In this document: positions 8,212 to 63,814 of the stretch, piece after piece | Numbering within the stretch: position 1 is the stretch's first letter | Layout of the letters: every line of letters begins with the position of its first letter | Source: Physcia stellaris | Taxonomy: Eukaryota; Ascomycota; Lecanoromycetes; Caliciales; Physciaceae | Length of the DNA stretch: 64,000 bases | Direction of reading: 5' to 3' | Assembly (NCBI GenBank): GCA_018902385.1 | Contig: JABSSW010000056.1 | Location: 186,001 to 250,000 of the forward strand | Translations under genes and position numbers: made by a program | Notes under the pieces: generated by a model | Told to the model about the DNA's origin: nothing | What the model saw: the letters and a program-made list of their open reading frames with translations, nothing else | Databases searched by the model: none

Positions 8212-8245
8212 TAGAGGTATTCAAACATCTCGTTTGCAAAACTCG

Positions 8246-35200: not shown

Positions 35201-35284
35201 TATATATTGATGTTTATACGTTTTATAATGTTCATTGAATTTTTTTTTTCGATAGTTGAGAATTTTTCGTTATGATATTTATTT
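35201..35284. other. AT-rich, unassigned
   Basis: A short AT-rich interval between E4 and the ACGAAAA minisatellite. Nothing recognisable. Confidence 0.3.
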
Positions 35285-35512: not shown

Positions 35513-35599
35513 AAAAAAAAAATGAAAATGATAAAAAATGTCGAAATTGTTTGATTTTTCAAACAAATCGAAATATTCGAAAAAAATAATGAAGAAAAA

Positions 35600-35770
35600 C
35601 GAAAAAAAATTGAAATTGTCGATTCGTTAATCGATCGAAATTTAATATACGATAAAACGTCGATAAATGCGATTTGTAAACGAAAAAAATTAAAATTGTT
35701 GATTCGTTAAACAATCGAAACAAAACGTTCGATAAAACGTAAAACAATTTCGAAAAAACGTTAAAAATAT
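35600..35770. repeat. Two-copy tandem duplication, about 75 bp
   Basis: Two neighbouring copies begin CGAAAAAAATT, share TTGATTCGTTAA-like and CGATAAAACGT stretches, and differ mainly by transitions. Confidence 0.6.
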
Positions 35771-37216: not shown

Positions 37217-37221
37217 GTGAC

Positions 37222-37399
37222 TGTTGATGTATTGAATGTAAAAAGTTTGATTAGCTATCTAGAAATCAAATGATCAGATATATATCATAGTAATTACATA
37301 AAAAATCACTCAATGACTGAGTGTCAATTGATTGATTGAATGTTAAATACAGAAAGTCTGTCTATTTTGTTTTCAAAAGTCACATGTCAATTCATAACA
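37222..37399. repeat. E5 LTR, left copy
   Basis: 178 bp, TGTTGATGTATTGAATG to TTCATAACA, a direct repeat of 58,629-58,811. The two differ by small indels and mostly transitions, occurring in both copies. Confidence 0.9.
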
Positions 37400-38669
37400 A
37401 TCTGTTTCAATAGAAAGAAACTGTAAAGACATTCGTCTCGACGTTATTCGTATCAATATCATTTCACATATCAATATTAATCACGTATCTAATCATACAG
37501 CTATTTGAGTCGAGAGACTCGACGAATCAGAACGTTAAAAGAAGCATCAACGATCGAAATCTTAAATGAAATGATAATGACAAATCTTTGTTCAGAGAAA
37601 ATCTCGACAAATGAAATGTTAAAAGCTTTCGAATTAAAGTTTTGAAAATTTGAAAATTTTTCGAATTAAAACTAGTTTGAAAGATCTTTTCAGTATTTTC
37701 GTTTTTGATAGTCGATTTAACTAGTTTTGACGATGATGTGAAAAACGAACTCGCAAACTCATCAAATGAAACTAATCGATTTGACAAAATGCACTTTTTG
37801 ACTCATAGTTGTTTCATATTTTTCACGAAATTCATAACATTTTCAAATTTCGAAAAATTTCGTCAAACATCATGCTCTGACTCGTAGTTTTTTCATTCAA
37901 CAAAATATTCAACGTTTCGCTTTTTGATCATGCGCTTGTTGATAATGCGTGACAACTCAAAAATTTGACGTTAATTGTATCGTCGTTCACAAAGACGAAA
38001 TCAAAATGATTTGATTTAAAACGCTTGAAAAAAATCAGTCGATGACGACGAGCATCTTTTCAGTCAATTACGTTGAAAATCGTTTTGAATAAATCAGTTG
38101 CTAAAAATATTCAATCGATAAATCAGACGATCAATCTTCTCGATAATAGTAAAAAAATTCAACGAATTGTTGATCATATTTTTGCTGATAGTCGAAAGTA
38201 TATTATAGTCTTTGTGTAATTTGACGAGCGCGACATTTTTTTGTTTCATAAACATCGATTGATGTTTTCTGTCATAATGAAACTTAGCATTTATTTGATC
38301 AAAAAGCATGATATCACTAGCATTTTGACGAGTGATAAAACGACGCTTCTTTATTGATTATCAGAGATATCGACGTCGATAAATTTAGTCAAATCGATGA
38401 TTTTGAACTGAAATAAAATCATAGACGATCTCATTTGAAAAGTTGTCAATGTTAATTGAATTGTTGAAATCTCGTTGCATTTGCGACAGAACGTCAAATC
38501 AAAAATCAGAATATTTCAGAATAGAAATCAGAAAGCGAAAAACGATTTCAACGATTTGATTAATTCGTTTCGACAAGTCGTTCGTTTGAAAATGATAAAC
38601 AATTGAATACAAAAATTTAACTTCTAGTCTGATAAACATAGAATTTTCACATATTTGATAAAAACTTTC

Positions 38670-38893
38670 TGTTACGAGCATGCCTGACAGATAGATTTGA
38701 CAAATAGATAGTTGATATGATATATGATCGAACAGCGAACTATGCTTTAATTCTACGTTGAAATTAACGTGATTTGAAATTTGACGTCGCACATTGTTTG
38801 CAATTTCAACATTTTGTATTTATTTGTTTTTGCAAATTTATTGTTTTCGTCTAGCTAATCAATAATACGTCTATTCAAACACGACTCATGATA
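38670..38893. repeat. E7 LTR, left copy
   Basis: 224 bp, TGTTACGAGCATGCC to CTCATGATA, a direct repeat of 45,154-45,378. It is followed by a leader containing GTGATACGCGAG. Confidence 0.85.
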
Positions 38894-44800: not shown

Positions 44801-45153
44801 ATCGAGACTACATTCAATTAAAATTTGAAAATCTCGAATTCAGTACATTCATCTCGATTTCACTCTCGCAACGTTTTCGCAATTTTTAGTTTTCGTTATC
44901 GTTTCGATGTTATTTACAATCAAAATTTACGTCGCATGAAAAATTGAATCGTGTCAAAAATATTTTCAAAAATTGTTGTCAAATTTTATCGAACTTTGAA
45001 ACAATAACGAAACATCTGAAAATGAAAAATGATGATCGTGAAACTTCTGAATTTTGCAAACATTCAAATCAGTCGACAAAGTTTTCAACAAGATTTTTCA
45101 ATTTCGAAATAACAACGAATCGTCGAGACGACGTTCGCGAAAAAAAAGAAATA

Positions 45154-45378
45154 GTGTTACGAACATGTCTGACAAATAAGTTTGACAAATAAATAATTGA
45201 TATGATATGTGATCGAGCAACGAATTATGCTCTAATTCTACGTTGAAATTAGCGTGATTTGAAATTTGACGTCGCACATTGTTTGCAATTTCAATATTTT
45301 GTATTTATTTGTTTCTGCAAACTTATTGTTTTCGTCTAGCTAGTCAATAATACGTCTATTCAAGCACGATTCATGATA
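45154..45378. repeat. E7 LTR, right copy
   Basis: 225 bp partner of the left LTR, differing mainly by transitions. Confidence 0.85.
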
Positions 45379-45774
45379 TTTTCTATCACGATCGAAAATA
45401 ATAGTTTTTGATAGTTCTCAATCAGTCGTATTCAGACGATTCAGCAAAACATGCTTTCATTGAACAATTGTTCATGTGTTTTTGTTTGAAATTAGCACTA
45501 TACGTTTGAAATATTTACAGTTAATCGACATCACGCAATCGAATTGATCGACTCGTGACTTTGATAGAATCAAAATGAAATCGATAATGATAATGTGAAA
45601 AAGAATATTCGAAGTGAATATAGATTGCAGTGAGTCATAGAGTTTGTGTCGACGTGTTTGATATGTTTGACATTTCGAACAATGCTTAAAAAAATCTTTG
45701 AAATATTTGAACAAATCACGAATGTAATAGAAAGCTGCTATTTTCTCATAGCAGCGAGCGAAATTTGAATGATT

Positions 45775-45965
45775 TGTGAAATGTCATGCATTGATATGAT
45801 ATTAATACATAATTACACGAGAATATCGAAGTGAAAAACAAATACATGAAAGTTCGACAAAACATATGTAAAAGATTTGATCATAGACGAGATTCGATTC
45901 TGTCACTCGATGTGATAAAATAAAAGTGTTAATTCTAATGATTGATCAAATATTGATTTCAAATG
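45775..45965. repeat. E6 terminal repeat, left (inverted)
   Basis: Reverse complement of the repeat at 52,657-52,837. Shared blocks include AAATGTCATGCA, CATATGTAAA and GATTTGATCATAG. It is more diverged than the other two copies. Confidence 0.8.
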
Positions 45966-46049
45966 TTGAAATCGATGCACGCTCGTCACATTACTTTTCG
46001 TTTTTTCTCAGCTTCGTCTCGAAGCGATAACTCATTGTTTTTTTCTCTT

Positions 46050-48263
46050 TCATCGATCGACAAAATACGTAATCTTGATGATTTGATTTTTAGAAATGTA
46101 CAGTTCATAGCGAATGCGACAGTCGTGAAGACGTACAGAAATCTGAAATGAAAACGACGAAAACGACGAAAACGACGAAAACGACGAAAAAAACTTTTGC
46201 AAACTATTTGATTTTGTATTGCGAAAATCGTTGAATGTCAAAGAAATTTCGCAAATATGAAATTTTTGATGTTTTCGAACTGAGCTATGCGATGAAATAG
46301 ATGAAAAAATGAACGAGCAAACGACGATTGCGCTTTTCATCGACTTTGAGCTAATTTTGTATGTCGCAATCGAAAAATTCGAGCATTTCGATGATAGAAA
46401 TTGCGAAGCAATTTTCGTCGAAAATATTTGACTTCGTGATGTTGCAAAAGAAATAAACGAAACGAGCGAAACAAAAAAATCATTGATTGATGCAATCTTC
46501 ACGAATTTTGATGTGATTTTGTGTGTCGCAATCGAAAAACTTGAATTATTTGATGAAACAAATCGCGAAACAATTTTCGTTGAAAATATTTGATTTCGTG
46601 ATGTTGCAAAAATAAATCGAACGAGCGAATCAGATGAGCAAATAAATGTTGATTTCTTCTTGATTTTACATGTAGATTCTGATGCGAAAATTTGAAAAAT
46701 CAAGTTTTTGACAAACTTTCGAGCATGATGCTCGCGAATATGCTCGTGAAATTTGTTATTGAAATTGAAATTCTGTTTGCAACGTTTGCAAATTCGAATG
46801 CAAACGATCTGTGAAATCGAAAATCGTTCAATTTTTGTTTTTACGCGAATGCGAGCAATTTGAATTCGAAATGCTGTGAGTCATTTTGCGATGAATTTCG
46901 CATCTTTTGCGAATAATGTAATTGTTGATCTCTCTGCGATTTCGCACGTTGAATTGACTGTATCATTCGAGAGAAATGAACAGATTATTGAAAACATCTG
47001 ATCAAAAGTTTTTGAAAATTCAAGTACGTGCTCGAAAGATGTTGCGAACGAAACAACACGTGATGAAACAATGATTGATTTTTTCATTTTTTCGCATATT
47101 GATTTGAGTGTACAGTTTTTGAAAGACGAATCGCTTTTTGAAGACTTCTGTACATCGATTTTTAAATCGATTTGAATCGAATTTTTAAATGAAATAGTAA
47201 AGCATTGAAGTGATTCGCTCTCTGTTCGAATAGATACAATTTCGAATGTGAAAAGTAGAAAATTCGAATTCTTTAGTGAGTTGACTGTTTCGAAAGATAT
47301 TGTCGATTCGAATATTTGTTTCTGTGATGTTGCAAATGCAACAAACGTTTTCAACGAAATCAACGAATTGACAATTGTTGATTTTTTTTTCGTCTCGCAT
47401 ACTGAATTGACTGTATCGATCGAGAAATGAAAACTGACGATTGAATGTCTTCGAATATCGATTTTGTGAAATTTTTGAGTCGAAATATGCAGTTCTTGCG
47501 AAGCAAACAAAGTCGTCACATTTTTGACTGTTGATTTCTTCTCTGCTTTGCATACTGATTTGAGTGAATGAAATCGAAAAGACGAATTGATGACAGTCTT
47601 TTTTGCATGCTGCTCGCGTTTATGTTGACGAAACATTTTTTTGAAATTGAATGTCTGTTTGCAATGTCGACACGCTGATAATCTCTTCGTCGATTCTGAT
47701 GTAATTTCGAATGCAAAAAATTGAAAAATCGAGTGTTTCAATAGAATGACTGTTTCGAGTGTTGCAAATGAAACAAAAAGCTCAAGCGAAACGAATGACG
47801 TTTTTTCGATTTCGCATACTAAATTGATTGCATTGATCGAGAGATGAGAATTCTTGACGAATTTCTGAATAGAAATTTTTTGATGTTTTGATTCGAGCGT
47901 TTGAAAAGATGTTGATTTCAACGAAATAACAAAACATCGAGTTGAAATATTTTTCATCGACTCTGATACAGTTTCTGATGTAAAAAATGAAAGATGTGAG
48001 TTTTTCAATAAAATGACTGTTTCGAAAATCATTGTTGAATTAAATATCTGCTTTAATGTTGCAATAGAAATGTCAGATTTTTGCGATGCAAACGCAAAGA
48101 GCGAATCATTAACTGTTGACTTTTCGTCGTTCTTGCACATTAATTTGGCTGTATTGATATCGAAACAGAAATTTTTGACGAATTTCTTCGCGTGTTGCTT
48201 GCGCACGTGCTCGTGAAACGTTTCTTTGATGTTGAAGTTCTGATCGCAACGCATGCAAAACAT
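46050..48263 (-). other. C2H2 zinc-finger accessory frames of E6, left half
   Basis: Part of fossil E6. The 48,263-46,881 frame is 460 codons, the longest in the AT-rich block. It has at least two fingers of the form C-X2-C-X12-H-X-H/Q-X4-H (CMRCDQNFNIKETFHEHVRK; CRHCKQTFNFKKMFRQHKRE) separated by Ser/Phe-rich spacers that repeat an SIAT..ES motif. The 46,703-46,050 frame repeats the same spacer motifs. Homologous to the right half of E6 and to E8. Confidence 0.6.
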
Positions 48264-49054
48264 TGTTGAAATTGATTTTGCAAATATGACGAATTCGATT
48301 CGTAAAGTTTCTATTCACTCGTTCAACGATGCTGACGTCAAAACGTTTTGTTTATTGTATCAGATATCGAACGCAGCGTCATCAAGACAAGTAAATAACA
48401 AAATGAGCAGATTTGACTCTCGATATAAATGTTGACAGTGTTGAAGATGTTGCAGAAAATTCGCGAAATCGCTAAATTGTCGATCTTCACGTGTGAGAAT
48501 TGAATCGAAAATATCGACATCTTGAATAATTGATGTTGATTTTGCAACTTTTTGAGTTTTCAATGTTTTTGATTTGATTCGTTTAACATTTTTGACAACA
48601 TTAGCTTTCGTTTTCTTGATCGCTTTCAGATTTTCGAATGAAATGTTCGATTCTTGTTGTTTCTGCGAAGCAGACGAAGAAATTGAAACAATTGAAACTA
48701 TCAAAGTAAAAATTGTCGAGTTCTCGAAGATTTCGCATACTGATTCTGATGCGAAAATTGAAAAAGACGAGTTATTGATTTGCTTGAGAGAAAATGCATT
48801 CGTTAAAGCTATATCAAATTCACGCAGAGAGATGAAATTCGATTGATTTTTGAATCAATCGAGAACAGAATTTTCGAGACATGTTGATAATCATTCGAGC
48901 ATGTCTGATTTCGAATATTGATTTCGACATTGCTGAAAATGTTGCAAGAAATTCACGACTTCATTGAACAATCTAACATTCAAGTTTTCAAGAGTGAATT
49001 CTGAATAGAAAATATCGATATGTTGAAACATTAAAATCATCGCAGAAATTGAAA

Positions 49055-49970
49055 ATCAAAATCGATTTGCTAGACAAACAAATGTGATTTTGGAATGTTC
49101 TCAAGCAACTCAAATGATGTTGATATCGATTGTTGAAAAAAAAACGTTTTAAAAGATTTTTGATATTTCTGATGCAATGATCTTTGATGCAAGATTTCGA
49201 AAATCTGATATTGAATTCAACATCGAGACAGAGAACAAATGCTGATTTGTTAGATAAATAGATAGAATATTGAAAGAATCTCGAATGAGAAAAATGATTG
49301 CAATATCAGATGTTGATGATGATTCGAACAATTTTTGAAATCGATACTGAAACTATCGCTGAAATCAGAAAATATGATCGATCAATAAAAAAGACAAATA
49401 TGTTTTGACAATATTCTCGAAAAACATAAATGATTTCGATATTGAAATAACGTGAATATTAAAAATTTTTAATTAGAAATGATATTGACTTTCTGACTGA
49501 ATACAGAATCTATCATCAAAACAAAAGAGAATAGATCTTTTGCTAGATAAACGAAAATGATTTCGTAAAATTCTCATCAAAAATAAATGATTTTTGTATC
49601 AGATTTCTTGATTGAATGTTGTTGATTTCTGACTAAATATCGAGTTCATCGAGTGAATAGAAAAGAAACACTGATTTGATAAATCGATGAGTATGTTTTC
49701 GAATTAATTCTCAAACAAAGAAAATAGTTTCGATGTTGATGTGTTGATGAAATGTTGAATCGAAATATGTGAATTTTTTGACTCGATATCACAGTCATTT
49801 CCGTACAGTTTTTTGATTGAAGTATTAAAGCAATCGAAAGAATAAAGAAAAACGATCGAGTTGCTAGTAAAATAAATCTGATTTTGAAGAATTCTCGAAG
49901 AAGATAAATGATTCGAGTTCGATCGAAAAGATGAAAACGATATTTCGAATATTGATGATCAAGAATTTGA
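49055..49970. repeat. Degenerate tandem array, six units of about 130-190 bp
   Basis: Within E6. Landmarks TTGCTAGACAAA, TTGTTAGATAAA, TTGCTAGATAAA and TTGCTAGTAAAAT, each followed by an ATTCTC/AATGAT block, recur near 49,076, 49,246, 49,379, 49,541, 49,678 and 49,870. Read on the minus strand each resembles the opening of the right-half finger frame (LIRDSFNILS, FIREFFDILS). Confidence 0.55.
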
Positions 49971-50468
49971 TTTTCGACTCAACGACGAAATTACTGATTT
50001 GATCACTGTTCAGACAGTTGATATGATGTTTTCGTGATGTAGAAAAATTCGTTGACTTGATGATTTAAATTTGATTTTTGATAATTTGCTTTGACGATTG
50101 CTTTTGCAACTCGTTTTTCGATTTTACATCGATTATTGAATTCGCGAATTTTGAAAATTATTGACGTACACTTTGTGTCTGATCACTGATACTGATTTGA
50201 CGACTATTTTTGCAATTCGTTCTTCGATGAGTTTTGCTTGATACATCGACTTTCGCGATAGATATTTTCTTGAAAATTCTGCACAACACTAGAGCGAGCT
50301 ATGTTTTCTGTTTTTTTTTTGCTGATTCGTTGAATAGAATCGAGTCTCGTTGTTCAGTCTGACTTTGAAGAAGTGACGTCTTAGATCTTCGCATTGAGTT
50401 TGAAAACTTGTTTATTGAATAAACTGTCGTATTTCGAGCAGCTTGAAAAAATGTAAAGTGATTTCGAT

Positions 50469-50655
50469 ATAATGTGAAAAATGTGACGAGCGTACTATGT
50501 GTTGATTTCTAATAAATGTTTGAATCTTTATCTTATCATATCGAAATTCGAATTCGAATTTCGCTATGATCAAATCATTTACATATGATTTGTCAGATTT
50601 TCATAGTTAATTCTGCAGTCTAGAATTTTGTTGTTTATTCATATCATTGCATGAC
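50469..50655. repeat. E6 internal copy of the terminal repeat
   Basis: Starts TGTGACGAGCGTACTATG, in direct orientation with 52,657-52,837. It is followed by a leader (to about 50,890) whose GAGATACGCGAGTTC resembles the leader after the left LTR of E7. It may act as the 5' LTR of the right-hand unit. Confidence 0.85.
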
Positions 50656-50935
50656 ATTTTACATTATTCTAGATTCTCAAACTCAATCGGGATATGTTTT
50701 CGTACATGTCTCAATCATAGTTTGAAGCAAACAGTTGAATTGAGCATTGCGAATTTCATTTCGCAGCAGAGTTTCGTCGATCAGATTTCAAATATTTGAA
50801 TCATTAACGAACTCGATTTCTTCATTTTACACGTCTATTCAGATTCATACAACAATTTAATTACATTCTCGTCGAGATACGCGAGTTCAAAATAAGATTT
50901 CATTACATCATTCAAGAACGATTGTATCAGAAACT

Positions 50936-52400
50936 TTGTTACAACACGAAATCATTCTTTTTATTCGAGAATTTTTCGATATTTTATCTAATCATCTAGC
51001 GAATCGATTATTTTTTTCTGTTTTCAGAATGCATTGTCAACATTGTAACGACGAGTTTTCAGAAACGTTTACAATTCGCGAGCATTATCAACAATCTGAC
51101 ATTTGTTTTGAGACTATTCGACATCGAATTGCACAATACGATGCTATTCATCATCATCGTTTTCTAGAAGTCAGATTGATCAGACAAAAAGAGCAAAAGA
51201 AAGTCGCAATGATCAGACCAAAAAAAACAAAAAAAACAAAAGAAAATCGAATTGATCGAGCAAAAAGCTGCAAAGCGAACAGAAATTGAAATCATTGAAA
51301 TTGTCAAATCAACATCAACATTTTGTGATATCGATATATTCGATTCAACACTCATATTTGATATTTTGAAATTTGATTTATACAGCAAAATGATAGATTT
51401 TCTGCAATATTTTCAGCAAATTCAACATCAATATCGAAAATCAGATGTGCTCGATTTATTGTTCAAATGCGTTCGAGATTTCGTTTATGCATGATTCAAT
51501 AATCAATCAAGTTTCATCATTATACAGAATTTCGACAAAGATTTGATTTGCGCATTTTCTACTATTTCGTTCGAATTCACATCGAAATCATTTATTTCAT
51601 CACATGCTTCGCATATTTCATCTCAGTATCATTCGTGCGTTGAATGTTTCGCTCAATTCTCGTCAATGACTCGATTTCTAGAATATACGAAACAAATCAA
51701 TTGTTTGAAAATGATTTGCAAACATTGCGAACAGAATTTCAATTTCAAAAACAAATTTCACGAGCATATTCGCGAGCAGCATATTCAGAAATCGAATATC
51801 AACTCGAATTTTCGATTTTCTACATCAGAATTCATTTACAACATCAAGAAGAAATCAATTTCGTTCATTTCGTCTGTTTCGTCGATTTTTTTTGCAACAT
51901 TTACATCGATATTTGAATCAATATCATCAAAATGTTCGCATTTTTCTATTGCGACATTCAATATCACATCAAAATCGATGAAAAAACTATCAATCAATTG
52001 TTCATTTACATTTTCGACTTCATTTTCGATTTCATTTTTTCGAACATCTGTATCAAAACATCAAAAATTTTATTTCATTATCGATGATTTGATTCGCATG
52101 TTTCGTGAAAAGTCTAAATCATTTGATTTACATTCGCATCAAAAAGATTTTGTTTTTTCGCAACGTTTCGACGATAATTCATTTCGTCGATCACGTTTTT
52201 TCATGTATCAATCACGAATAATTTTTTATTTCATGTTTGCAGTCAATCAGAAAACATCGATTAGTCAAAGTTTGAAAAACTCGAATTCGAAGAATTTTCA
52301 ACAGCATACGTTCGCGAAATCGATATCGTTTTGTCGTTTTGTTCTGTCAAAGAAATCGATCATTTCATCATACAAAAAAACACGTATTTTTTACATTTGA
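50936..52400 (+). other. C2H2 zinc-finger accessory frames of E6, right half
   Basis: Part of fossil E6. The first frame contains CQHCNDEFSETFTIREH (C-X2-C finger). The second (51,543-52,400) contains CKHCEQNFNFKNKFHEHIRE and, near its end, KSISFI and SRIIFYF stretches matching the tail of the E8 frame (SRITSYF). Same order of modules as E8 but more mutated. Confidence 0.6.
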
Positions 52401-52656
52401 TTGCAATCAAAATTCTCATCAAGATTTTCATTCGCATGATTTTCGTTTACGTTTTCGTTTACGTTTTCGTCATTTTTTCGATTTCGAATTTCAGATCACG
52501 TTTGTTGCATCTGTTTCGATCATTTCAGTTTTCGCAATGACTCGTTCAATTATCGACGTTTTAGTCAATTATATTTTTCGAATCGCCGGCCGATGAGAGA
52601 AATGAAAGAAATGATTAGTCGCTTCGAGACGAAACTGAAAAAAAACGAAAAATAAT

Positions 52657-52837
52657 GTGACGAACGTACTATGTGTTGATTTCTGATAGATGTTTGAATT
52701 TTTATTTTATCACATCGAGATTCGAACTCGAATTTCGTTATGATCAAATCATTTACATATGATTTGTCAGATTCTCATAGTTAGTTTTGCAGTCTAGAAT
52801 TCTGTTGTTTACTCATATCATTGCATAGCATTTTACA
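52657..52837. repeat. E6 terminal repeat, right
   Basis: TGTGACGAACGTACTATG to GCATTTTACA, followed directly by the target duplication TGATT. Confidence 0.85.
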
Positions 52838-55800
52838 TGATTATCATCATGAACGACGACTAGAATATTTTGAATAATTGAATGAAATATGCACAGTCGA
52901 TGAAATTCGTAAACGTGATTGTCAATGATGAAATCATCAAATCGAAAAATTAGCTCATTAGTCTTTCGATAAAAAGAAAGTTTGACGACGTTTTCGTCGT
53001 TTTTATTTTGTTGATTTAGCATTGAGCATATCTTTTTCAATTCAAATCGTTGATGTAACTCGCGACAAGCTTTTTGCGAAAATCTTTCTCAATTTTCATT
53101 AAAGTTGTTGTGAAAAAGCATCGAGTTCGTCTTTTTCGAATGCAACGTCAATATTGAAATTGATTAAACGAAAGAAAACGTCAAACACAATGTGTTATTT
53201 GTTTGACTTGTGACGCAACTCGACGTCGAATCGTTGAATATAGTCGAAAACGCGTACAAATCGAAAATTGAACTTGTCAATGAAAATTGTAATCATGTTG
53301 ATTTGTTTAATTATGTTTAAAGTCGCGTCGTGATTCGTGAAAATGATAATGAAACGTTGTTTCGAGAAATCGATTAAATGTTTTATTTTCTTTAACATTC
53401 AAACTATATCAACGAACTTTAATTCGATGAGTCAATATTTTGTTTTCGCGTTCGTTAGAAATCGACTAAAAAACAAAATAGATTCGATAGTTTTTCTAAA
53501 CGAATATTCTTTATCATTTCATTTGACGCTATTTTTCACGTGATACATCATGTCAATTAGCTCGAATTTCTTGCTAGCATCGAGATCGACGTATAGCTTT
53601 TTACGAGAGTTCGAATGAACGAGATAGAAAAATTTAATTAGCAAAAATTGTAATGTTTGAAAAAAAACTAGCTTTTCAATAGTAGAATTCTTAATTCTAG
53701 TGTTGCGTGAGTAGATTTTTTTGACATTGTCAATTACAAATTCGTCGTGAAATAGTTCAGTCTTCAACTTTTGAAACGATTTGAACATTTCAGCGTATCA
53801 AAACACATAATTTCGTAATCAATTCGTGAAATTTAAATACGTCTTCAGTAATTGCAAAGTAGTAGAAAAGAACAAACGTGAAATAGTTTTCAGCTTTTTT
53901 TCAACGATGACTAGTTCAAAAAAATCAATTTTCTGATCTAGCAAATGAACAGTGAGATAGTCAATGAAAATTTTTTTCGATTTGATAGAAATGTTGTTAA
54001 CTTTGAACATATCGAAAATTTGCTTGAAATGAGTTAGATGTTTCTGTAAAATGTTTGAATGAACAACAATATCGTTTACATATGTTTTAGCGAAAACTCG
54101 AAGCGATCGAAGCAATCGATCGATTTGACGTTGTACGTAAACAAAAGAATTTTTGTAATTCATCACGATTACGTTGAAACTTTTTTGATTTTTATGTGTG
54201 ATCACAGTCAATTTATGTTTGTCGTCTGAATGAATTCTTCATTGATAGAAAAAAATTGAGCAATTCAGCACAATAATGTATTGACATTTTAAAACAACTA
54301 AAATTATGTCGAATTGAAGAAATAAAAAATACACATTCGATTGAGTGATAACGTTGAAATTTCGAATATTCACAACAGATCGATTTTTTTTCTTGTCGTT
54401 GATCTTTTTTCATACGCAAAACACAAAATAGTTAAATGAAATAAATTCGTCGATTCAATTAAATCTATTTGATTCATGTAATTTGTCAAAAGTTTCGTCG
54501 ACAAACTTTTTATTCTTTTTGTTTAAAAAATATATTTTAATTTTGTCGAATATTCTTTGCTTTCAGTTCGATTTGAGCGAAATTTTCATTCAGTTTTTTT
54601 GAAATAGCTTGACAAAGTCTGTGTTTTTTCAAATATCAAAATAGATTGACATCAATTTTGTGATAATTTGCACGACATCGTCGCTAAATCGATGAATGAT
54701 GACGTCATTATCGAGAATGATTTTTGTCGAAAATTTCAAATCAAATTTTGACTTTGTATTTTTCAAGTTTGAAATAGTTGAAATTTCGTTGATGAAAACT
54801 AGAAATTGAAAATCGCTATAACAAATCGACGAAAACTGAACATTTAATTTTGAAAAAATTTGACGTTGCGACAAAATCGAATTGTGAAAAATTTTCGAAA
54901 TTGCGATTGTGACGACGATAATTTCAAAAATGAAAAAATTATTGTCATTCAACACGTTGATAACGACGTAAATCGCGACGATAATTTTTTTGAATCAATT
55001 AATTTTATGTTTTTGAATTGAACGTCGTAAAATTAAATCGACGACGTGATTAATCTCGTCGACGTGAATTTGAAAAACATTAATGTAATTTATTTCGATT
55101 ATGTGATCGACGCGATAATTTCGAAATATATAAACGAATTGATTGCTTTTATTGCGAACGATAATTTGTTTAGTATTGAAATCTACTAAATGAACGTAAA
55201 GTGAAAGCTTTAGCTCATTCGATTCGAAGAGATAATTTCGATCGAATGAGACAATCGTATAATGCATTGAAAAAATTAACTCGAAACGAAAAAATATTAC
55301 AGTGATTTTACGAGCATGAATCGAAGTTTGAACAATTATTTTAAACGTTCGAATCTCTAGACTAGTTGTAATTTCACAGCTCTCGATGTAAACTGTCTTT
55401 TTAGATATGTTAACATCGATTTTTTCTGACTCGATAACGTCATTTTCAAGTAGCATGTTAGTTTTCAAATTATCGATCAAATGAATTTTTCTAATGATTT
55501 TAACTTTAATCGAGTTATCGTTCTTTTGATCAGAAAAATACATAAACAGAATAACATACTCAGCAATTATATGCTTGTCGACGTCTAAATCACGTACGAA
55601 AATAAAAATAGTCATAGTTTTAATGAATACATTTGAAATTTGTTTTTTGAAAAACTGACGATCGCATAGAACTATGTCAACGTCGATGTTTAAGCAAATC
55701 GACTCAATTTCAACTATTGATGAAAGAGCTACGTGAATACGTGCGTAAATTCAGTTTCGAAAATCATGATCAATGTCGACGTCTTTGTTGAAATCGACGT

Positions 55801-58628
55801 TTGAAACAATGATGAAAATCGATGCAAATTTAGTTTTCTTAAAGAAATCGAAATGAGCATTTGTGAAAGACTTCGACGTTTTTGATACAATAGTTGAGTC
55901 AAAATCGATGATTTCGATTTTCGATTGCGTGATAAACGAGCTCGTAAACTCGTCTGACTTTGAAACTGTCAAAAGTTTTTTAGTTGAACTTCGCGTAATC
56001 ACACTGATGTTCTGAATAATCATAATAGTAAAAGAAAATTGATTAAATACATTTGCTGAATAAATCAAACTAGTTTTGTCAAAACAATCGAAACGAAAAT
56101 GTTCGTGTAATTTATTGTTGAACGAAAAATCATTGCTACACTTTTTGCAAATAGCTATTTTATTCGATTTTGACGAAAATACTTCTGACGTGATCAAATA
56201 AACAACGTTGTCATTCTCGTCTTCGAAATCGTTGTAGAAATTTGATTGATAATATGAAATATTTTTTGAAACATGATAATCGTCAGCATTCTTCTCGTCA
56301 AAGTAGTCTTTTTCAATTTTTTCAGTTTCGTTATTTTCGTCAACGTTGTAAACTTTAGCTTTGTCAGATTTTTCAAATTTTTTGACGTTTGATTTGTTCG
56401 ATTTTCGATTCGAAACTGAAGCGAACTCGTTTGAAAATTTTAACAAAAGAGATTGTCTTGCAATTGACAAAACAGTTGAGAATGAATCGAAAGATTTTTG
56501 TTGATAACTTTTTGTAAATTGACGAGACTGATAGATTGATTGAGTTTGATAAATCGAATTTCTATATTGATAAAAGTTGTAACTCGATGACGATCACATA
56601 TACGTTTGACTAAAAAGATTGACGTAGAATTGTTGACTAAAGTCAACATCTTTTGTTCGATTCTGTTTACTAAATCGATTAAATCGATCAGCATTGTTAT
56701 TGAAATTTGAGTTGTTAATTTGATCGCGATGACGAGTTGTCATATTCATTTATACACTTTTTTTCGCATTCAACTGATTTAAAAATGTAATCAAAATGAT
56801 GTTTTCAGACGACTCAGAAATTTGCGCTCGAAAATTCAGCTCGAAATTACTTCAAACAGTGATACATTGATGAAATACTGATGAGAAGTTTGCAATTCTG
56901 ACATGTCGAAAAATATTTTGCATGTAATTTCGAGATTTGCGTTCTCGACGAACGTCGACATAAATGTAATTTTCGATTTGTAGTTTTTTCAGAGCAGTCG
57001 ACGTTCGCTTTTGAATCGTTTGATAAAATGAGTGCATCAACGTTCAATGTTAATTTTTCGAAAAAAATTCTTCTCAATCTCAGTTAGCTTCGCGTTATAT
57101 CACGTTAAAACATGATTCTTTAGACAAATAAACATCAGCTTTTTGATTCTAAAATCGAATGAAATTTTTTCAGATTCTTAAAATGATCAATGAAGATGAA
57201 AACGTTTCGATAAAAATTGTGTCGATCAAAATTGACAATGAACTGATTTGTGTCGATTGAATTTTCATAGTCAGAATCGAAATAGTTCACGTTTTCAGCA
57301 AATTTGACAGCTGATTGAAGAATATTATTGTCAACAAAAAAAAATGTTTCAATAGCAGATCGAGATATTGAAACGAAAACGATAACTACGATCATAATGT
57401 CATTTCAAAAAATTTGATCGATTTTCGATGATGATTGAATTAAAAACATAATGCGACGAATCTTTTCGATTTGAGTGAAAGAAAATGTTTGACTATTGAA
57501 AAAAAATGTCTGACTATTGTCAATCTGAATGCTGATTGAGCGACGTTCATTGTTCGTGATATTTGAATCGACAATAAATTGACGAAAAGCGTTTAAATCA
57601 AAATCAGAATTAGTGATGAGCGAGTAGCTAGAAATTAATGACGAGAAAATAGAATCACGAATTTCTGAATTGCTATTTCGTCGAAATTTTGAGCTAATAG
57701 AAATTTCAGATTGAATAACTGTAAAGACTTCGAATCGAATAAAAATATCGAGTTTGAATACGAAAAACTGTTCATTCGAAAATTGTACACGAAATATTGA
57801 AAATGACGACGAATTGTTAGCAAACGAGTTAGTTACGATTTCGAATTTAACTGAGAAACTTCGAAAGACGTTCGATTGTCGAAAATCGACAATGTCGATT
57901 CGAAATTGATTCAAAGCGTTTTGCAATGATATTACGTCGTCAATTCATTGAGATGAATAAACAACGTCGTGAGCTCGTGTTCTAGAAAATTTGTAAATTT
58001 TAACAATGAAAATCTCAATCGTACGTCTATCTTCGTTGTTGAGCAATGAGTTGAAAAAATGATCAATTTGCAGAAACTCGTGTATCGATCACGCAAACTG
58101 AGTAGTTTGATTAAAAATTGAAATCAAAATGTCGAAAAGATGCTAGAAAAATGTCTGAGATTGTCTTTCTAGTCAATGATAAAATGTAGAAAACTTTCTA
58201 GACTAACTGAAAGATTTTTTCAATCATAGAAAATTTGCGACAAAAAGCAGATACAAATCAAAAAAATGTAATAATAGTTTATTGCAAAAGAAGCAATCTA
58301 ATATCAAAAAATGATTTCAAAATGAGACAACGAACGTAAATGAAAAAAAGAAAAAAAGTGAAAAAAACTCGAATAAAAGCAGAAATTCAATAAAATTTGA
58401 ATTCATTTTCTTAGACAAATGCGAATAGAATTCGAATATGACGTAATCACTTTGACTCAACGCAACGATGAGACAGCGAAATAACGAAACACATCGAGAA
58501 AAAGAAAAACTTGTTTGATGAAATAACATTTACAATCAAATAATGATAAATTTCTGATTGCATTGTTAGTCGAATGATTGATGATTAACAAATTAATTTT
58601 GATGATGTGATAAATGATGCTATCAAAT

Positions 58629-58811
58629 TGTTGATGTATTGAATGTAAAAAGTTTGATTAACTATCTAGAAATCAATGATCAGATATATATCATAGTAAT
58701 TACATAAACAAGTCACTCAATTGACTGAATGTCAGTTGATTGACTGAATGCTAAATACAGAAAATTTGTCTATTTTGTTTTCAAGTTCTAGTCACATGTC
58801 AATTCATAACA
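58629..58811. repeat. E5 LTR, right copy
   Basis: 183 bp partner of the left LTR and the 5' end of the minus-strand element. It is followed directly by the target duplication ATGAC (58,812-58,816). Confidence 0.9.
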
Positions 58812-58816
58812 ATGAC

Positions 58817-60519
58817 AAAATCATTACGCAAAATTCATAATTTCAATTAAAATGCAATTTTTTTTTCGTAATTCGAACGATAATATCGATATCGTTTGTA
58901 AATTTCGACATATTTTTTTCTTGCGTAACGAAACGATATTATCAATATTTATTTGCGACATTTCGACAAAATAATTGTATTAAACGATCAAGATTCGCGA
59001 TATTTATTCGTCGATTTTTGAATAAAACGATTGTATTGAAAAATCAAAATTCGCGATATTTATTCGTCGATCGTTGAATAAAACGATTGAATTAAACGAT
59101 CAAAATTATCAATTTTTATTTTGAATTTGATTCGATATAAATAAAAACGTATTTTTTTGAAAATTTTCGCGAATTCGCGATATTTTTTTTTCGTCGTATT
59201 GTTTTTTGTTTTTTATTCGATGCGTCAATTGTTTTTATAATATAATAAATGTTGTTTTTGATTGTTTTCATTCATTTGTTGTATCGTTTTATTTTATTTT
59301 CAAATATCGATATCGACGATTAAAATTATTTTTTTTGTTTCGTATTCATTTATCAATCGATTTTTTATCGTGAAAAACGTCGTTTTTCAAAAATTTTATT
59401 CATTTGTTGCATCGTTTTATTTCATTTTCAAAAAACAACATTGATAACAATAATTATTTTTTTCGTTTTCGATAAATAACGATTTTCAAAATCGAATATT
59501 CAACAATAAATGTACACATCAATAAAAACGCGAATTTCGAACATTTTCACGTACGCAAATCATTTTACATTTTTTATTATTTTTTGTTTTCGAATATTTG
59601 TTTATTTTCGCGCAATTCAAATCGACAAAATAACGACAAATTTGATTAAATTTTGTGTTATTCGATTCGATTCGAAAAACGCACGCAAAAAAAAAATTTA
59701 ATATCAAAATTTAAATTTTTTCATTGTTCAAACGTTTTGATTTTTTATTGATCAAAACAATTTTTATATCAACGTTGATTTGATGCAAAAATTTTTCATT
59801 GACAAAACAATCGCGATTTTTGACACAATTCGAATTTTTGATAAAATTTTCAATTTTTGTATTGATTTTGTTTAACATTAAAATTTAATTTTTTATTTTT
59901 TATTGATTAAACAATTTTTGCATTAACGTTTATTTGATACAAAAATTTGTCATTGATGAAATAATCGCGATTTTTGACATAATTCAATTTTTGATAAAAA
60001 AAAACAACATTGATTACGAATTTACGAATTTTTAACAAAATTTCGACAATGTGACAATTTCGAAAATAACAAAATGACGTTTTTTTTTAAACGAAAAAAC
60101 AAATTTGCAATTTTTTTTTATTCGATTGAATTTGTAAAAAATTGAAAAATTCGACGAAAAAAAACAAAACGAATGAATTTTTGACAACAATTCGTAAATT
60201 ATCGAAATTGTTAATCATGACGAATAATTAACGTTTGTAATTTGATAATGACGATATATTTGTTCGCAACGACGACAACAAAAAAATAATGTAAAAATAA
60301 AATGAAAAATATAAAACGATTTGTTTATTAATTAAATTAATGCGAAATTTAATTACATCAAATTCAACACACGTTAAAATTACGAATTATTTTTAATTAT
60401 ATACGCAATTTACATATATTGCGACATTATATTAAAACAACAATCGATAAACTTTTTAATATGTGAATATATTTCAAAAATTTTGTTTAACAAAATAAAC
60501 ACAAACGCATTTAAAAACG
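58817..60519. other. AT-rich spacer with several tandem duplications
   Basis: No coding motif. Visible duplications: a roughly 62-bp unit with CGATATTTATTCGTCGAT (58,990-59,110, about 2.5 copies); a roughly 140-bp unit with CATTTGTTG-ATCGTTTTATTT (59,260-59,460, 2 copies); and a roughly 155-bp unit with AATCGCGATTTTTGACA-AATTC (59,737-60,000, 2 copies). Confidence 0.6.
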
Positions 60520-60524
60520 AATTT

Positions 60525-60732
60525 TGTTGAAATATAATTTTCGCAAATGTGTTGTGCAAATGTTGCAATCAAAATTCAATTGATATAATTTGACGAAAGA
60601 AAAACTAATGCGTTTTTGTTGAAATTAATATTTTAACATTCGCACATTTTTTGTGTTTTCATTTGCATGTAATTTATTAAAACAACGAGATTCAAAACAA
60701 TAGAATGATAGTCATTCATGATTTTTTCAATA
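60525..60732. repeat. E8 5' LTR (mutated)
   Basis: 208 bp, gaplessly alignable with 63,602-63,809. The pair differs at 45 positions, all C-to-T or G-to-A transitions, with 44 of the changes on this copy. Confidence 0.95.
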
Positions 60733-60912
60733 AATTATGAGAATCGAATTAACAGTTTTCGTTATTACATTTAATATCAATTACAACAGCATGACAAAAC
60801 ATGTCAACAATAATATCTAGTCGTCGAACAATACAACAAATTTGCAATATTTCAACAATAATCAATTTTCGAAACATTCAATCTTGTCAAATTCGAAATC
60901 GACTCAATTGCA

Positions 60913-62352
60913 TTGACAACATTCAATATTTTGATACAAACGATCAATACATTTAGTATTCTCAGTTACGTCGATAACATTTATCTATTTACATTTTACG
61001 AATTCGTCTATTTATCGAATTTATTTCACGATATCGAAATCTTTCGCGAAATCTATCGCGCAGTCAGAATGACTGTTTTTATTTCTATTTATGCGAATTT
61101 CGCACTCGCATCTATTTTTATTTTCGCGATCACGTTCAAATCGACGTTCGTATTTTTCATTTTCGAATTTGATTTTTTATCTTTTTCGTCTGCTCTTTGC
61201 GATCACGTTTCTGAAGATCATTTCATGACGCAAAATCTGAAAACGCTGTATAACATGCATCTGACAGAGAATGCTAAAATTTTAAGATGCAGTTGATACG
61301 TGCAAATCAAAAAGTCACAAGAAATTTATCATGCTCGAAAGCACGAGTTGATCATGAAAAGCAAAATGAAGCAGAAAACGAAAAAGTTGTTGAAACAACA
61401 GAAAGAAGCTCGTCTGGTCAAGAAACGGGCTGAAGAATATACGTGCAGACGTTGCAAGCATTCGATCAAATTCGATAGCAACACCAAATTTCACGAGCAT
61501 ATCCGTACCCGTCATGCAAAGAAACCGAAGACAGTTGTTTCACCCTCCTTGCAGGCCTCGAAGTCAATTGCCTCATCTCCTACTCCTCCTGCTTCGTCAC
61601 CTCATTCGGTCACCTCGTCACCTGCCACGTCACCGAAACTCCTACCTCTCTCGATTCCTACACCAGAAGTTGTACGCGAGCGTTCAGAGAGCGTATCACC
61701 TTCATCGTCGGCTGCAACACCTGCAACACCAAGAAAGCCGATATCCTGGGCAGAAATTGCCTCACGACCCGTCACTGCACCGAAGCCCTCTCGTCTCCCG
61801 ATTGCGACACCCAAATCGGTGTGCAAACCGTTGAAGAATGCAAGCGTTGCTTGCCCGCCTACTCCGCCTCGAACCCCACCATCGAGGCCCTATCTCACTG
61901 TGGACGACCTGTTCCACATGTTCGCTGGGAAGCCGAGTCCGTTTGGCCTGCAGCCAAGTCAGAACAAGCCGTTGTCTCCTCGCAGCTTCGGCAAATGCAG
62001 TCCCGCCAGCAAATGTGGCCCCATACAAAGCCGCATTACGTCATACTTCCATGCGGTGGCCTTACCTGCTTCCAAATCGGCCAAATCCGAAGCATTTGCA
62101 CCAACTCACGTCTCGGTGAAACACTCGGCCCGCACGTCACCTTCGCGGACCTCTCGATTTTCTTCTCCTTCGATGCGCCCCTCTCTCTCAAGGGTCTCTC
62201 GCTCGCCTCCTGTTTGCAGGCATTGCCAAGGGCGTTCCGCCACCTATTGGCCTACTGGTTGGGCCATGCCAAGTGCCTCAAGAGTTGGGAACAATGGGAT
62301 ACCCATGGGGATACGTTTCGCTCCTCCCCGCCCTACTTTGGGGGAGTATTGA
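60913..62352 (+). other. C2H2 zinc-finger accessory frames of E8
   Basis: Part of element E8. The downstream frame (61,300-62,352) is rich in Lys/Arg/Glu at first. It then has one clear finger, CRRCKHSIKFDSN followed by the HEH-IRTRH histidines, and a long Pro/Ser/Thr-rich tail with the motifs ISWAEIASRP, YLTVDDLFHMFAGKP and SRITSYF. It ends in a second C-X2-C (VCRHCQG) and a basic Pro-rich terminus. The first part (60,913-61,296) lies in the mutated zone. I infer a nucleic-acid-binding or Gag-like packaging role; the family is unnamed to me. Related frames occur in E6 and, more distantly, at the gag end of E5. Confidence 0.65.
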
Positions 62353-63601
62353 CCCTCCTACTCCGGGGGAGTCACTACTTGGGGGAGTTAGCATGTTGTT
62401 TGTTTGTTTGTTTTGCCCGCCCGCCCTCCCTATTAACCGTTGATCGGCCATGGCCTGGGGGAGCATAAAAGTTGTTGTTTTAATGGATTCGATGTTCCGC
62501 CCCTTCCGTCCTTTGAAAGTTGTTGTATGCTTTGTTTTATTGTTTCACTAATGAGTAGGGACTTACCTCTGTTGTGGCTTCGTCTTGATCTAACACGAAA
62601 ACTCATCTACTCCCTACACTCTGCGGCTTCGTTATTCGCCCGATAAATACGAGGGGGAGAGAGTGACAGTACAGCTCAGAGAAGCGTACTGTACGTACAG
62701 TTGTTAGAAGAGGAGGAGCAGCCTACTAGACAGTACAACTTCGGGAAAGTGTACTGGCCAAGATGCTCACGTTCAGATAGTACCGCTTCGGGGGAGCGTA
62801 CTATGCAGTCATTACATACTCGGCCTTGCAGAGCAGAAACTCGATCAAGAAGGACAAGTAGTGCTGGAGATATCTGACCTTTTCGCATACTAATCGACCT
62901 GGTTCTCTGGCAGGTCTTAGTCAGGTCAGAAAAGCTCGATTCTGCACCCTTTGCATCGGTGTATGCCCGCAATGCATGCCGCGCATTCGATGCATTACCT
63001 TCCTTATCGATTTCTCGACCATCTGGCATACCTTATGGACTTCCTACAGCCAAATTGCATAGGTATTCGACCATTGATGCCGCAAGAAGTACCTGAGAAC
63101 CCTGAGACATAATGATGCTACCAGATCATGGTGTGACCTGCACTCTCGTTCAATATCGCAGAACTCAGGCACAGGGTACTTACTCCATGGTGTACCTTCT
63201 AGCCAATCCTAGGTACCAGATCCCACATCGATGCGCCACCTCATGGAGAAGCAGATGCAGAACCTCGCAATCCTTCAGATATTCGGTCGCACGCCTTACG
63301 AATCGGCCTTACGTCATACCTGAAGTTATGGACCTCGATTCGTTCGTTTCTGCAGCCTTCGCATCGGTGCATGACCTACCGTATAGGATCTACGTCATAC
63401 CACGTTGGGGGAGCTTGCTCGGAAGCTCCAGGCAATACACCGTTGGGGAAGCTCTAGGAGCCACATCGCTGGGGGAGCTACATCGCTGGGGAGCTCGCTC
63501 TGGGGAGCTCCAGGACTCGTCGCCGGGGAGCTTGCACGGAAGCTCCAGGCTGGGCTCGTTAGGATACAGGGCAGGTGGCACAAGCGGTTGCTGTGGGGGA
63601 G
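62335..63601 (+). other. E8 3' region with polypurine-tract-like motifs
   Basis: GGGGGAG occurs at least nine times (first at 62,340, last at 63,595-63,601 directly before the LTR), with several GGGGAG variants clustered at 63,400-63,530 among AGCTCC/GGAGCT inverted motifs. The last one is in the proper place for a plus-strand priming tract. Frames crossing this region (for example 63,112-63,705) run into the LTR and are not believable genes. Confidence 0.7.
62666..62803 (+). other. Three matched bulged hairpins
   Basis: Hairpins at 62,667-62,691, 62,731-62,756 and 62,778-62,803 share one design: a 6-bp outer stem (CAGTAC/GTACTG twice, TAGTAC/GTACTA once), a single unpaired base on the 5' side, a 3-4 bp inner stem (GCT/AGC or ACTT/AAGT) and a 5-7 base loop. 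Two loops contain TCGGG. The stem changes in the third copy are compensatory. Confidence 0.75.
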
Positions 63602-63809
63602 TGTTGAAATACAGCCTCCGCAGGTGTGCTGTGCAGGTGCTGCAGTCAGGATCCAGTTGGTATAACCTGACGAAAGAAGAACTAGTGCGTCCTTGTTGGG
63701 ACTAGTGTCTTGGCACCCGCACACTTCTTGTGCTCCCATCTGCATGTAACTTACTAAAACAACGAGATTCAGAGCAATAGAATGATAATCACTCATGATT
63801 TTTTCAATA
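63602..63809. repeat. E8 3' LTR (nearly unmutated)
   Basis: 208 bp partner of the 5' LTR. One G-to-A change is assignable to this copy. Beyond AATTT the sequence returns at once to mutated AT-rich DNA. Confidence 0.95.
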
Positions 63810-63814
63810 AATTT

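Follow-up and report, generated by a model that had tools for sequence, protein, structure and literature searches.

C-to-T mutation of cytosines before a 3' pyrimidine in repeats of the lichen-forming fungus Physcia stellaris

The retroelement E8 of Physcia stellaris, a lichen-forming ascomycete, carries one heavily mutated and one nearly intact LTR, which raises the question of which cytosines are mutated in its repeats and by which process. The DNA analyzed here, referred to as the window, comprises 64,000 nt (GCA_018902385.1, contig JABSSW010000056.1, 186,001-250,000, forward strand); an Rfam scan of this 64-kb window gave 0 matches at gathering scores. E8 is laid out in the window as follows:

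60520..60524, no strand: 5' target-site duplication AATTT (direct reading), identical at 63810-63814
60525..60732, + strand: 5' LTR, heavily mutated, 24% GC (counts versus the 3' LTR)
60733..61500, + strand: 5' interior with graded CpC/CpT loss (250-bp bins)
61501..63601, + strand: near-intact interior, GC about 46-58% (250-bp bins)
63602..63809, + strand: 3' LTR, nearly intact, with light CpC/CpT mutation versus other genomic copies
63810..63814, no strand: 3' target-site duplication AATTT (direct reading)

The LTR proper spans 208 bp and the 5-bp direct repeat AATTT is found on both flanks. The open frame at 61297-62352 appears, by eye, to contain a C2H2-like finger.

The LTR pair and the gradient along E8

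Alignment of 60525-60736 with 63602-63813 was gap-free over 212 bp and unveiled 45 differences, all of them transitions (24 T/C, 20 A/G and one reversed G/A), as described by an earlier note on this DNA, which had reported 45 gap-free differences of the C-to-T or G-to-A type only. Relative to the 3' LTR, taken as the ancestral state, 16/16 CpC, 25/29 CpT, 3/38 CpA and 0/10 CpG are mutated in the 5' LTR, corresponding to 41/45 CpY vs 3/48 CpR (Fisher p = 3.7e-18). This recount is identical to the hand count of the note (16/16, 25/29, 3 of about 38 and 0/10), and the deviating context spectrum that the note had named as evidence against its claim did not appear upon realignment. The 3' LTR, which had been taken as the near-intact starting state, is nearly intact but itself lightly mutated: compared with three other near-intact genomic copies it showed 8, 10 and 11 such changes, all at CpC or CpT except for one CpG in the 10-change and one in the 11-change comparison.

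Along E8 the loss of CpC and CpT falls off over a distance of about 1 kb from the left, AT-rich flank. When the reference copy is divided into consecutive 250-bp bins, the first of which takes in the LTR, the loss amounts to 25/25, 17/20, 20/26, 10/22 and 4/25 for CC and to 33/40, 27/35, 16/32, 8/37 and 1/25 for CT. Because this gradient crosses an LTR with many copies, the E8 boundary is not determined by copy number alone. Most of the best 40 of 212 LTR candidates, a list biased to intact copies, were hardly mutated when scored.

Target context in further copies, rRNA and the sampled genome

Beyond the LTR pair, C-to-T mutation on both strands follows a 3'-neighbour rule with the order CpC > CpT >> CpA and CpG, the latter two being at or near background. 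Three element copies were each scored against a near-intact copy, resulting in CC 107/396, CT 102/400, CA 31/409 and CG 29/298 for E8, CC 114/399, CT 55/402, CA 30/404 and CG 22/305 for C59, and CC 195/404, CT 113/405, CA 27/409 and CG 22/299 for C48. In the reverse direction the three copies gave CC 5-25 of 175-296 and CT 25-32 of 341-385, together with CA 21-28 of 391-405 and CG 29-35 of 306-332, and the latter two counts show that the loss of CpA and CpG in these copies barely exceeds background, if at all. Since CpC and CpT loss are about equal for E8 as a whole (0.27 vs 0.26), the order of CpC before CpT rests on C59, C48, the LTRs, the rRNA and the composition. Twelve LTR pairs outside the window differed at 52/245 CC, 39/364 CT, 13/423 CA and 3/130 CG sites. 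Both strands were mutated (C>T and G>A), C59 being strand-skewed (C>T 115/475, G>A 54/376). A rule based on the 5' context was dropped, as the rates vary little with the 5' base (NCT 0.24-0.29, NCC 0.32-0.51) and TCA (14/194) and TCG (14/245) were at the background level of 0.06-0.07.

For an rRNA pseudogene the ancestral state is known, and it was scored versus the Rfam consensus at conserved positions. In 11 printed blocks, a tally omitting blocks that aligned poorly or had almost only lower-case consensus, 27/30 CC, 17/33 CT, 0/27 CA and 0/34 CG were mutated. Poorly aligning blocks with conserved C/G add CC 2/4, CT 3/4, CA 1/3 and CG 0/2, so that all blocks with conserved C/G yield CC 29/34, CT 20/37, CA 1/30 and CG 0/36. 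Counting every position of the 11 blocks, whether upper- or lower-case, gave CC 113/140, CT 62/95, CA 12/87 and CG 26/115, a noisier tally because the Rfam consensus is not the rRNA of P. stellaris itself.

The remainder of the window was divided as follows:

1..8300, no strand: unaffected DNA with gene-like frames and balanced CpN, 46-53% GC (2-kb bins to 8,000)
8350..61400, no strand: AT-rich repeat tract with almost no CpC, reduced CpT and retained CpA
10084..16725, no strand: E1, mutated retroelement copy
22393..29006, no strand: E2, mutated retroelement copy, inverted relative to E1 and 90% identical

The left edge of the AT-rich tract lies at about 8.3-8.4 kb, and within the tract CpG is 2-5 fold above expectation (2-kb bins, 10,001 to 60,000). 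Comparing E1 and E2 over the full 6.7 kb, 172/196 CpT, 3/3 CpC, 149/821 CpA and 93/826 CpG positions with C in either copy differed, accompanied by 124 transversions. The agreement of this pair with the CpT rule, as claimed before, is thus borne out when differences are taken per site, whereas raw numbers across the full 6.7 kb do not show it. For the gag tract at 15,600-15,720 roughly ten of twelve differences had been assigned to CpT/ApG and one to CpA, in line with 18 CpT, 2 CpA and 1 CpG differences in the 500-bp bin containing it; in other 500-bp bins CpA and CpG differences were numerous. Judging from these old copies, CpR sites are also open to change in the long run.

The genome was sampled as 20 stretches of 10 kb (200 kb), cut into 200 blocks of 1 kb. 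The 19/200 blocks below 25% GC contained in total 1 CpC, 86 CpT, 2,287 CpA and 1,946 CpG, with about 102 CpG per block vs 99 in blocks of 45-50% GC. A CpY/CpR ratio below 0.5 was found in 36/39 blocks below 35% GC and in 0/157 blocks with at least 42% GC, 4/200 lying between. CpA as the main target, the other outcome named as contrary to the claim, was looked for in the sampled genome and is not what it shows. A 100-bp match within sample and window was obtained for 17/38 AT-rich vs 9/158 GC-rich blocks (38 instead of 39 blocks below 35% GC, as rounded GC was used for this repeat test). As a tblastn search of the 20 sampled stretches with eight retroelement proteins as queries gave 0 hits, the sampled AT-rich blocks are tied to repeats by DNA matches alone. 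Within the sample, mutation is confined to the repeat-enriched AT-rich fraction, to which retroelements and a stray rRNA unit belong. Intermediates mutated to graded extents occur as well. As in RIP, repeats are hit and non-repeated DNA is spared, with repeats judged within sample and window only. Composition, rRNA, further copies and the comparison of 3' with 5' context all support the proposed C-to-T mutator that needs a 3' pyrimidine.

The standard RIP indices (TpA/ApT and (CpA+TpG)/(ApC+GpT)) called 0/92 AT-rich 1-kb blocks, namely 0/39 and 0/53 under either threshold set, and the looser thresholds called 2/157 GC-rich sample blocks. Since these indices seek CpA loss and TpA gain, RIP at CpC/CpT would be invisible to index-based surveys, and such screens can miss a saturated case.

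Candidate enzymes and rival explanations

With a probability of roughly 0.7 we consider that P. stellaris mutates its repeats by a RIP-type process, with a RID-class enzyme following a 3'-pyrimidine rule. The target would be a C before a pyrimidine, CpC first and CpT second, with CpA and CpG essentially spared; by analogy with RIP, the repeats would direct mutation during the sexual cycle, and a RID/Masc1-class C5-methyltransferase homologue would be the agent. Searching for RID and DIM-2 homologues, as had been suggested, unveiled three C5-methyltransferase loci: a RID orthologue (contig C5), a second RID-class gene (C6) and a DIM-2-like gene (C3). The genome thereby contains a RID/Masc1-class homologue, as looked for in a RIP-capable fungus, and the three loci are consistent with the proposed methyltransferase/deaminase system of altered specificity.

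The C6 protein matches PF00145, and its C5-methylase domain contains PCQ, the Glu of motif VI and GNAVPP. Its match spans two TGA, at which introns are predicted from splice-like borders and relatives. The C6 clade (16 rows) is well separated with an SH-aLRT of 97, and Heterodermia is its sole named close hit among the matches listed. In the numbering of the C5 protein, the RID catalytic loop holds D718 in 64/65 and N721 in 65/65 other rows, which were chosen for the comparison; in 16/16 rows of the C6 clade D718 is replaced by F/Y and N721 by K/I/Q, so that the RID-type loop is not retained. Due to the separated clade, the single named close hit and the rebuilt loop, C6 would be the first candidate enzyme, followed by the C5 RID orthologue, which shows near-private substitutions, as a putative second; the C3 gene may contribute to the spread of mutation out of heterochromatin. 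That a lineage of lichen fungi around the Physciaceae took on an additional RID-class enzyme, one with a C-before-pyrimidine rule, its RIP nearly mirroring the CpA form, is a tentative proposal to which we give slightly less than even odds.

The rival that survives best, though we regard it as unlikely, is slow decay, in which CpC and CpT in heterochromatin would be methylated by an enzyme of the DIM-2 type and then deaminate spontaneously to T, without an active premeiotic mutator. It is favoured by the presence of the DIM-2-like gene, by an E8 gradient starting at the left, AT-rich flank and by the methylation of all CpN with a preference for CpT that is ascribed to DIM-2 in the pertinent part of a review (PMC13297926). 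With CpC almost gone (1 in 19 blocks) and CpA/CpG near background, however, a methylase nearly blind to CpR would be required, and the DIM-2 context reported in that part of the review is broad and favours CpT rather than CpC.

An artefact of alignment, ancestor choice or nanopore assembly is highly improbable: although the assembly is described in its report as a hybrid nanopore/Illumina draft (PMC7513301, relevant passage), the spectrum was the same with an independent rRNA ancestor, with other copies and in raw composition, and Pro/Gly-free reverse-transcriptase relatives occur on other public contigs. The rRNA, the LTR comparisons and the further copies speak against the choice of ancestor as its source. 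APOBEC-like editing of retroelement cDNA, equally improbable, would explain C-to-T changes in retroelements. Such editing leaves one-strand G-to-A with a 5' context and is at odds with the data, as both strands are mutated under a 3'-side rule and the rRNA unit is also affected; a PF08210 search gave no match in P. stellaris but carries no weight, the control genomes being without a match as well. UV damage in a sun-exposed lichen, for which CpC and CpT as dipyrimidines might speak, is the least probable of all and is contradicted by spared TpC-purine sites (TCA 14/194, TCG 14/245, at background) and untouched GC-rich blocks, since UV also mutates the 3' C of TpC, whatever base is 3'.

Coding effects and comparison with known RIP systems

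Returning to RIP with a 3'-pyrimidine rule, its full-strength application to 20 frames generated 1.38 stops per 100 codons (each of them a TGA, by TGG to TGA) vs 5.51 for CpA, and stripped all Pro, Gly and Trp from 20/20 frames. Consequently, the reading frame usually survives but a functional protein does not, which alters the defence logic. The window contains the following frame:

41454..42248, + strand: RT-like frame, stop-free, 264 aa, without Pro, Gly and Trp

A protein search with this mutated frame returned 69 matches without Pro or Gly among the 120 listed (of 223), a number that shows existence and not frequency, as a Pro/Gly-free query shares words with its hits. Reverse-transcriptase relatives without Pro and Gly thus exist on other public contigs and may be further cases of such RIP; a viral_contigs scan with the same frame matched 45 stretches and gave 0 relatives.

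The lichen fungus Cladonia rangiformis is likewise a Lecanoromycete. Strong RIP, a large AT-rich repeat compartment and RID and DIM-2 homologues are reported for it (PMC12542154), compartment and homologues being shared with P. stellaris; the main text of that report gives no dinucleotide context, with 0 occurrences of 'CpA' and 'dinucleotide'.

RID-dependent RIP of Neurospora crassa resembles the process in P. stellaris in its C-to-T mutation of both strands, the strong AT shift of repeats, the partial and full intermediates and the RID-class and DIM-2-class genes. In contrast, the order CpA>CpT>CpG>CpC stated for N. crassa in PMC5496416 is nearly inverted in P. stellaris (CpC>CpT>>CpA and CpG), in which the CpA preference that is usual in RIP, if not logically required, was not found. 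For Trichoderma reesei the same paper ranks CpA and CpG roughly level, ahead of CpT and, last, CpC, likewise a non-Neurospora preference and nearly the mirror image of P. stellaris. CpC, first in P. stellaris, is thus least favoured in the two fungi with a full order found in print, and the near-inversion provides a natural contrast for the question of which RID-class residues set the 3' neighbour.

RIP is mostly regarded as a process acting on CpA, and according to a k-mer survey of 1,239 species RIP-like defences have a preference for CpA in common (PMC12543289); if our reading is true, other fungi scored as without RIP may have the CpC/CpT form. In the transposons of Basidiomycota and Tuber context-restricted C-to-T mutation is also described, at CpG, however, which is spared in P. 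stellaris (PMC4352252). A precedent for CpC-led RIP that spares CpA was not found in the literature. CpT targeting itself is not new: CpT signatures are described in the corresponding parts of the reports on Magnaporthe, Botrytis and Sclerotinia (PMC4352252), Anisogramma (PMC10998396) and N. crassa Tad1 (PMC2621366), and CpT is named dominant in RIP-capable control fungi (PMC7882544, in a passage that leaves the other contexts unnamed). As far as these parts go, CpT to TpT is major or even dominant in some alignments but occurs alongside targeting of CpA or indices of the CpA type, and none of them names CpC as the leading target, whereas in P. stellaris mutation is led by CpC and CpA is spared.

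Sequence context of the mutations

The 3.3-kb insertion E8 (60525-63809) carries both LTRs, of which the 5' copy is heavily mutated and the 3' copy nearly intact, and has an AATTT repeat on each side:

60525-60732, 5' LTR of E8, 208 bp
63602-63809, 3' LTR of E8, 208 bp

From a hand count of this pair the earlier note had claimed that repeat-directed C-to-T mutation hits CpC and CpT and spares CpA and CpG. Exact alignment (212 bp, 0 gaps) reproduced the count (first row of the table) as well as the 45 differences, all transitions and one of them opposite in direction; pooled, 41/45 CpY (CpC and CpT) versus 3/48 CpR (CpA and CpG) were mutated (Fisher p = 3.7e-18).

Table. Sites changed per sites available by 3' neighbour of C; single figures are numbers of differences.
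Comparison: CpC; CpT; CpA; CpG
E8 5' LTR vs E8 3' LTR: 16/16; 25/29; 3/38; 0/10
E8 vs C56 copy: 107/396; 102/400; 31/409; 29/298
C59 copy vs C56 copy: 114/399; 55/402; 30/404; 22/305
C48 copy vs C56 copy: 195/404; 113/405; 27/409; 22/299
39 LTRs and E8 5' LTR vs E8 3' LTR: 110/632; 77/1106; 44/1384; 0/400
Same 40 comparisons, reverse direction: 175; 150; 10; 13
12 LTR pairs outside the window: 52; 39; 13; 3
C41 rRNA, 11 alignment blocks: 27/30; 17/33; 0/27; 0/34
C41 rRNA, poorly aligning blocks added: 29/34; 20/37; 1/30; 0/36
E1 vs E2, full length: 3/3; 172/196; 149/821; 93/826

Taken over its full length, E8 shows about equal loss of CpC and CpT. The mutation is graded, CpC loss falling from 25/25 in the first 250 bp to 4/25 at 1.0-1.25 kb and being low beyond 1.25 kb up to the last bin (3 sites). 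Since both LTRs are of the same family, copy number does not explain this gradient, which looks like a spread from the left flank.

A near-intact copy on C56 served as the reference for E8 and for its family members on contigs C59 and C48. CpC and CpT loss in these three copies is far above plain divergence, as given by the reverse comparison; therein the counts for CpA (21/398, 24/391, 28/405) and CpG (29/306, 32/332, 35/322) resemble those of the forward direction, which puts CpA and CpG at, or close to, background. Both strands are mutated in E8 (C>T 115/468, G>A 94/375) and in the C48 copy (141/479, 167/383), and the C59 copy is strand-skewed (115/475, 54/376). The latter (L071, C59:223013-226354) is mutated in its 5' LTR and again at 2.5-2.75 kb, with an intact 3' LTR, i.e. 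mutation occurs in patches. With the three copies pooled, E8 by its first 1,000 reference bases only, the 5' neighbour was of little effect (NCT 0.24-0.29, NCC 0.32-0.51, TCA 0.07 and TCG 0.06 mutated); what sets the target is the single base 3' of C.

For the genome-wide LTR set the best 40 among 212 candidates were taken, a selection that yields mostly intact copies and includes the E8 3' LTR itself. The bias seen in E8 recurs in the 12 LTR pairs outside the window, where CpC and CpT lead and CpA is not the main target. For E1 (10084-16725) and E2 (22393-29006), mutated retroelement copies in mutual inversion, the earlier note had reported agreement with E8. Over their full length the CpT excess per site stands, but CpR sites are changed as well, beside 124 transversions; these are diverged copies, and over long times CpR does not escape change.

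Contig C41 has a mutated rDNA unit (L005) with LSU, 5.8S and SSU parts, for which an independent ancestor was available. Its 5.8S (C41:45899-46052), in a heavily mutated pseudogene unit, is the sole match reported for the assembly with 39 of 2,644 candidates scored, and the same search found no intact rDNA array. The tally of this unit against the Rfam consensus was limited to C positions conserved together with their neighbour.

Composition and standard RIP indices

Between 10,001 and 60,000 the 25 bins of 2 kb have 20-33% GC, with observed/expected ratios of 0.00-0.10 for CpC, 0.07-0.73 for CpT, 1.06-1.44 for CpA and 1.97-4.97 for CpG, and those of 1-8 kb show balanced CpN. At 46-58 kb CpC is nearly gone where CpT is still half there; CpC was therefore mutated first. 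The GC-rich part has short tandem repeats at 2685-3292 (inside a frame that is ankyrin-like by eye) and 6676-6903 that are not mutated to AT.

The assembly (43,974,083 bases, 147 contigs) was sampled in 200 blocks from 20 x 10 kb on 19 contigs, hand-picked blind. The 19 blocks below 25% GC hold, on both strands, 1 CpC, 86 CpT, 2,287 CpA and 1,946 CpG, compared with 8,912, 10,905, 11,483 and 8,124 in the 82 blocks of 45-50% GC. Per block, CpC thereby drops from 109 to 0.05 and CpT from 133 to 4.5, with CpA almost unchanged (140 vs 120) and CpG unchanged (99 vs ~102).

The usual indices of repeat-induced point mutation (RIP) miss this pattern because they seek a loss of CpA and a gain of TpA. 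The AT-rich blocks have a lower TpA/ApT (0.45-0.46 vs 0.70-0.73) and a higher substrate index (1.35-1.42 vs 1.25-1.27). Neither of two threshold sets, one of them stricter, called RIP in the 39 AT-rich sample blocks or the 53 AT-rich window blocks, of which 36 and 53, respectively, have CpY/CpR <0.5; the looser set called 2/157 GC-rich sample blocks. The older of the two sets, a threshold pair, is quoted in excerpts of PMC2621366 and PMC10998396.

Effect on reading frames

When all CpC and CpT in 20 open frames (11,351 codons) were mutated in silico, no Pro, Gly or Trp was left and 157 stops arose, all TGA (1.38 per 100 codons), compared with 5.51 per 100 codons for full CpA mutation. At 9-61 kb of the window, the ten frames that run for 150 aa or more without a stop contain no Pro, Gly or Trp in 2,523 residues, and nine retroelement-like stretches carry 30 TGA and 7 TAA in frame. 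Among 120 listed relatives of the window's 264-aa frame on other public contigs 69 are without Pro and Gly, the query itself favouring such matches.

The public protein P0134 (447 aa), without Pro or Gly, is 83% identical to 41670-43007, and its four Trp sit where this copy has four in-frame TGA. It looks as if a gene caller had read TGA as Trp, and protein databases may be taking up mutated repeats of this kind under code 4. Several frames share, by eye, a C2H2-like finger motif (CxxC ... FHEHxRxxHA-like) and are perhaps the gag-like protein of non-autonomous elements:

46050-46880, mutated frame
46881-48314, mutated frame
51495-52400, mutated frame
61297-62352, near-intact frame

Methyltransferase genes and known RIP systems

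The earlier note had proposed a search for RID/DIM-2 homologues. A PF00145 profile search of the assembly gave four matches at three C5-methyltransferase loci: RID-class genes on contigs C5 and C6 and a DIM-2-like gene on C3. The C5 protein, identical at all 308 compared residues (100%) to Physcia stellaris G7Y79_00005g016670, is the orthologue of other lichens' RID-class proteins (e.g. Usnea 66%, Alectoria 64%, Teloschistes 61-62%, Xanthoria 58%); a Heterodermia protein reaches 86% over 54% of the query. In the C6 gene the PF00145 match spans two TGA which, by our own placement, would be intronic. Among its best 120 listed of 8,000 candidates scored, the nearest named relative is Heterodermia aff. 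obscurata (72% over 99%), other named fungi showing 33-44%.

In a quick tree of 86 hand-chosen rows from both lists the C6 clade has an SH-aLRT of 97 and an uncertain place among RIDs. This clade has other residues at D718 (64/65 outside it), N721 (65/65), H711 (57/65) and, where that site exists, T860 (61/62), so that the loop after the catalytic PCQ is rebuilt. The C5 clade (five rows) carries N672, C686, R691, M714 and M787, each in at most two other rows. Second RID-class proteins of Teloschistes, Ikaeria, Calogaya and relatives (P0084, P0094, P0069, P0112, P0279, P0284) form a clade apart from both Physcia genes.

The C3 gene combines PF00145 with DUF7893, and we take it to be DIM-2-like by resemblance. 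RIP that requires a pyrimidine 3' of the target C is the simplest account, with a RID-class enzyme as its candidate carrier. The serious rival explanation is that a DIM-2-type enzyme methylates CpC and CpT and that this methylation then decays.

In excerpts of the genome paper of P. stellaris (Physciaceae, Caliciales; PMC7513301) no repeat analysis for Physcia was seen, 'transposable' never appears and the three words starting with 'RIP' all denote RiPP peptides. A survey concludes, in its section 9, that CpA preference is shared, and a figure legend has lecanoromycetes among the classes with enriched k-mers (PMC12543289). No description of CpC-led RIP sparing CpA was found in the literature searched, partly as excerpts and with bioRxiv and most subscription journals outside, so that absence is not proven. 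According to excerpts of PMC5496416, the order is CpA>CpT>CpG>CpC in N. crassa, and in T. reesei CpA and CpG are about equal and precede CpT, with CpC last. The CpT half of the Physcia rule has precedents, which counts against its novelty: as far as the excerpts extend, CpT is targeted beside CpA in three species (PMC4352252) and in Anisogramma (PMC10998396), overshadows CpA in Tad1 of N. crassa (PMC2621366), and CpT/ApG is named dominant in RIP-capable control fungi (PMC7882544).
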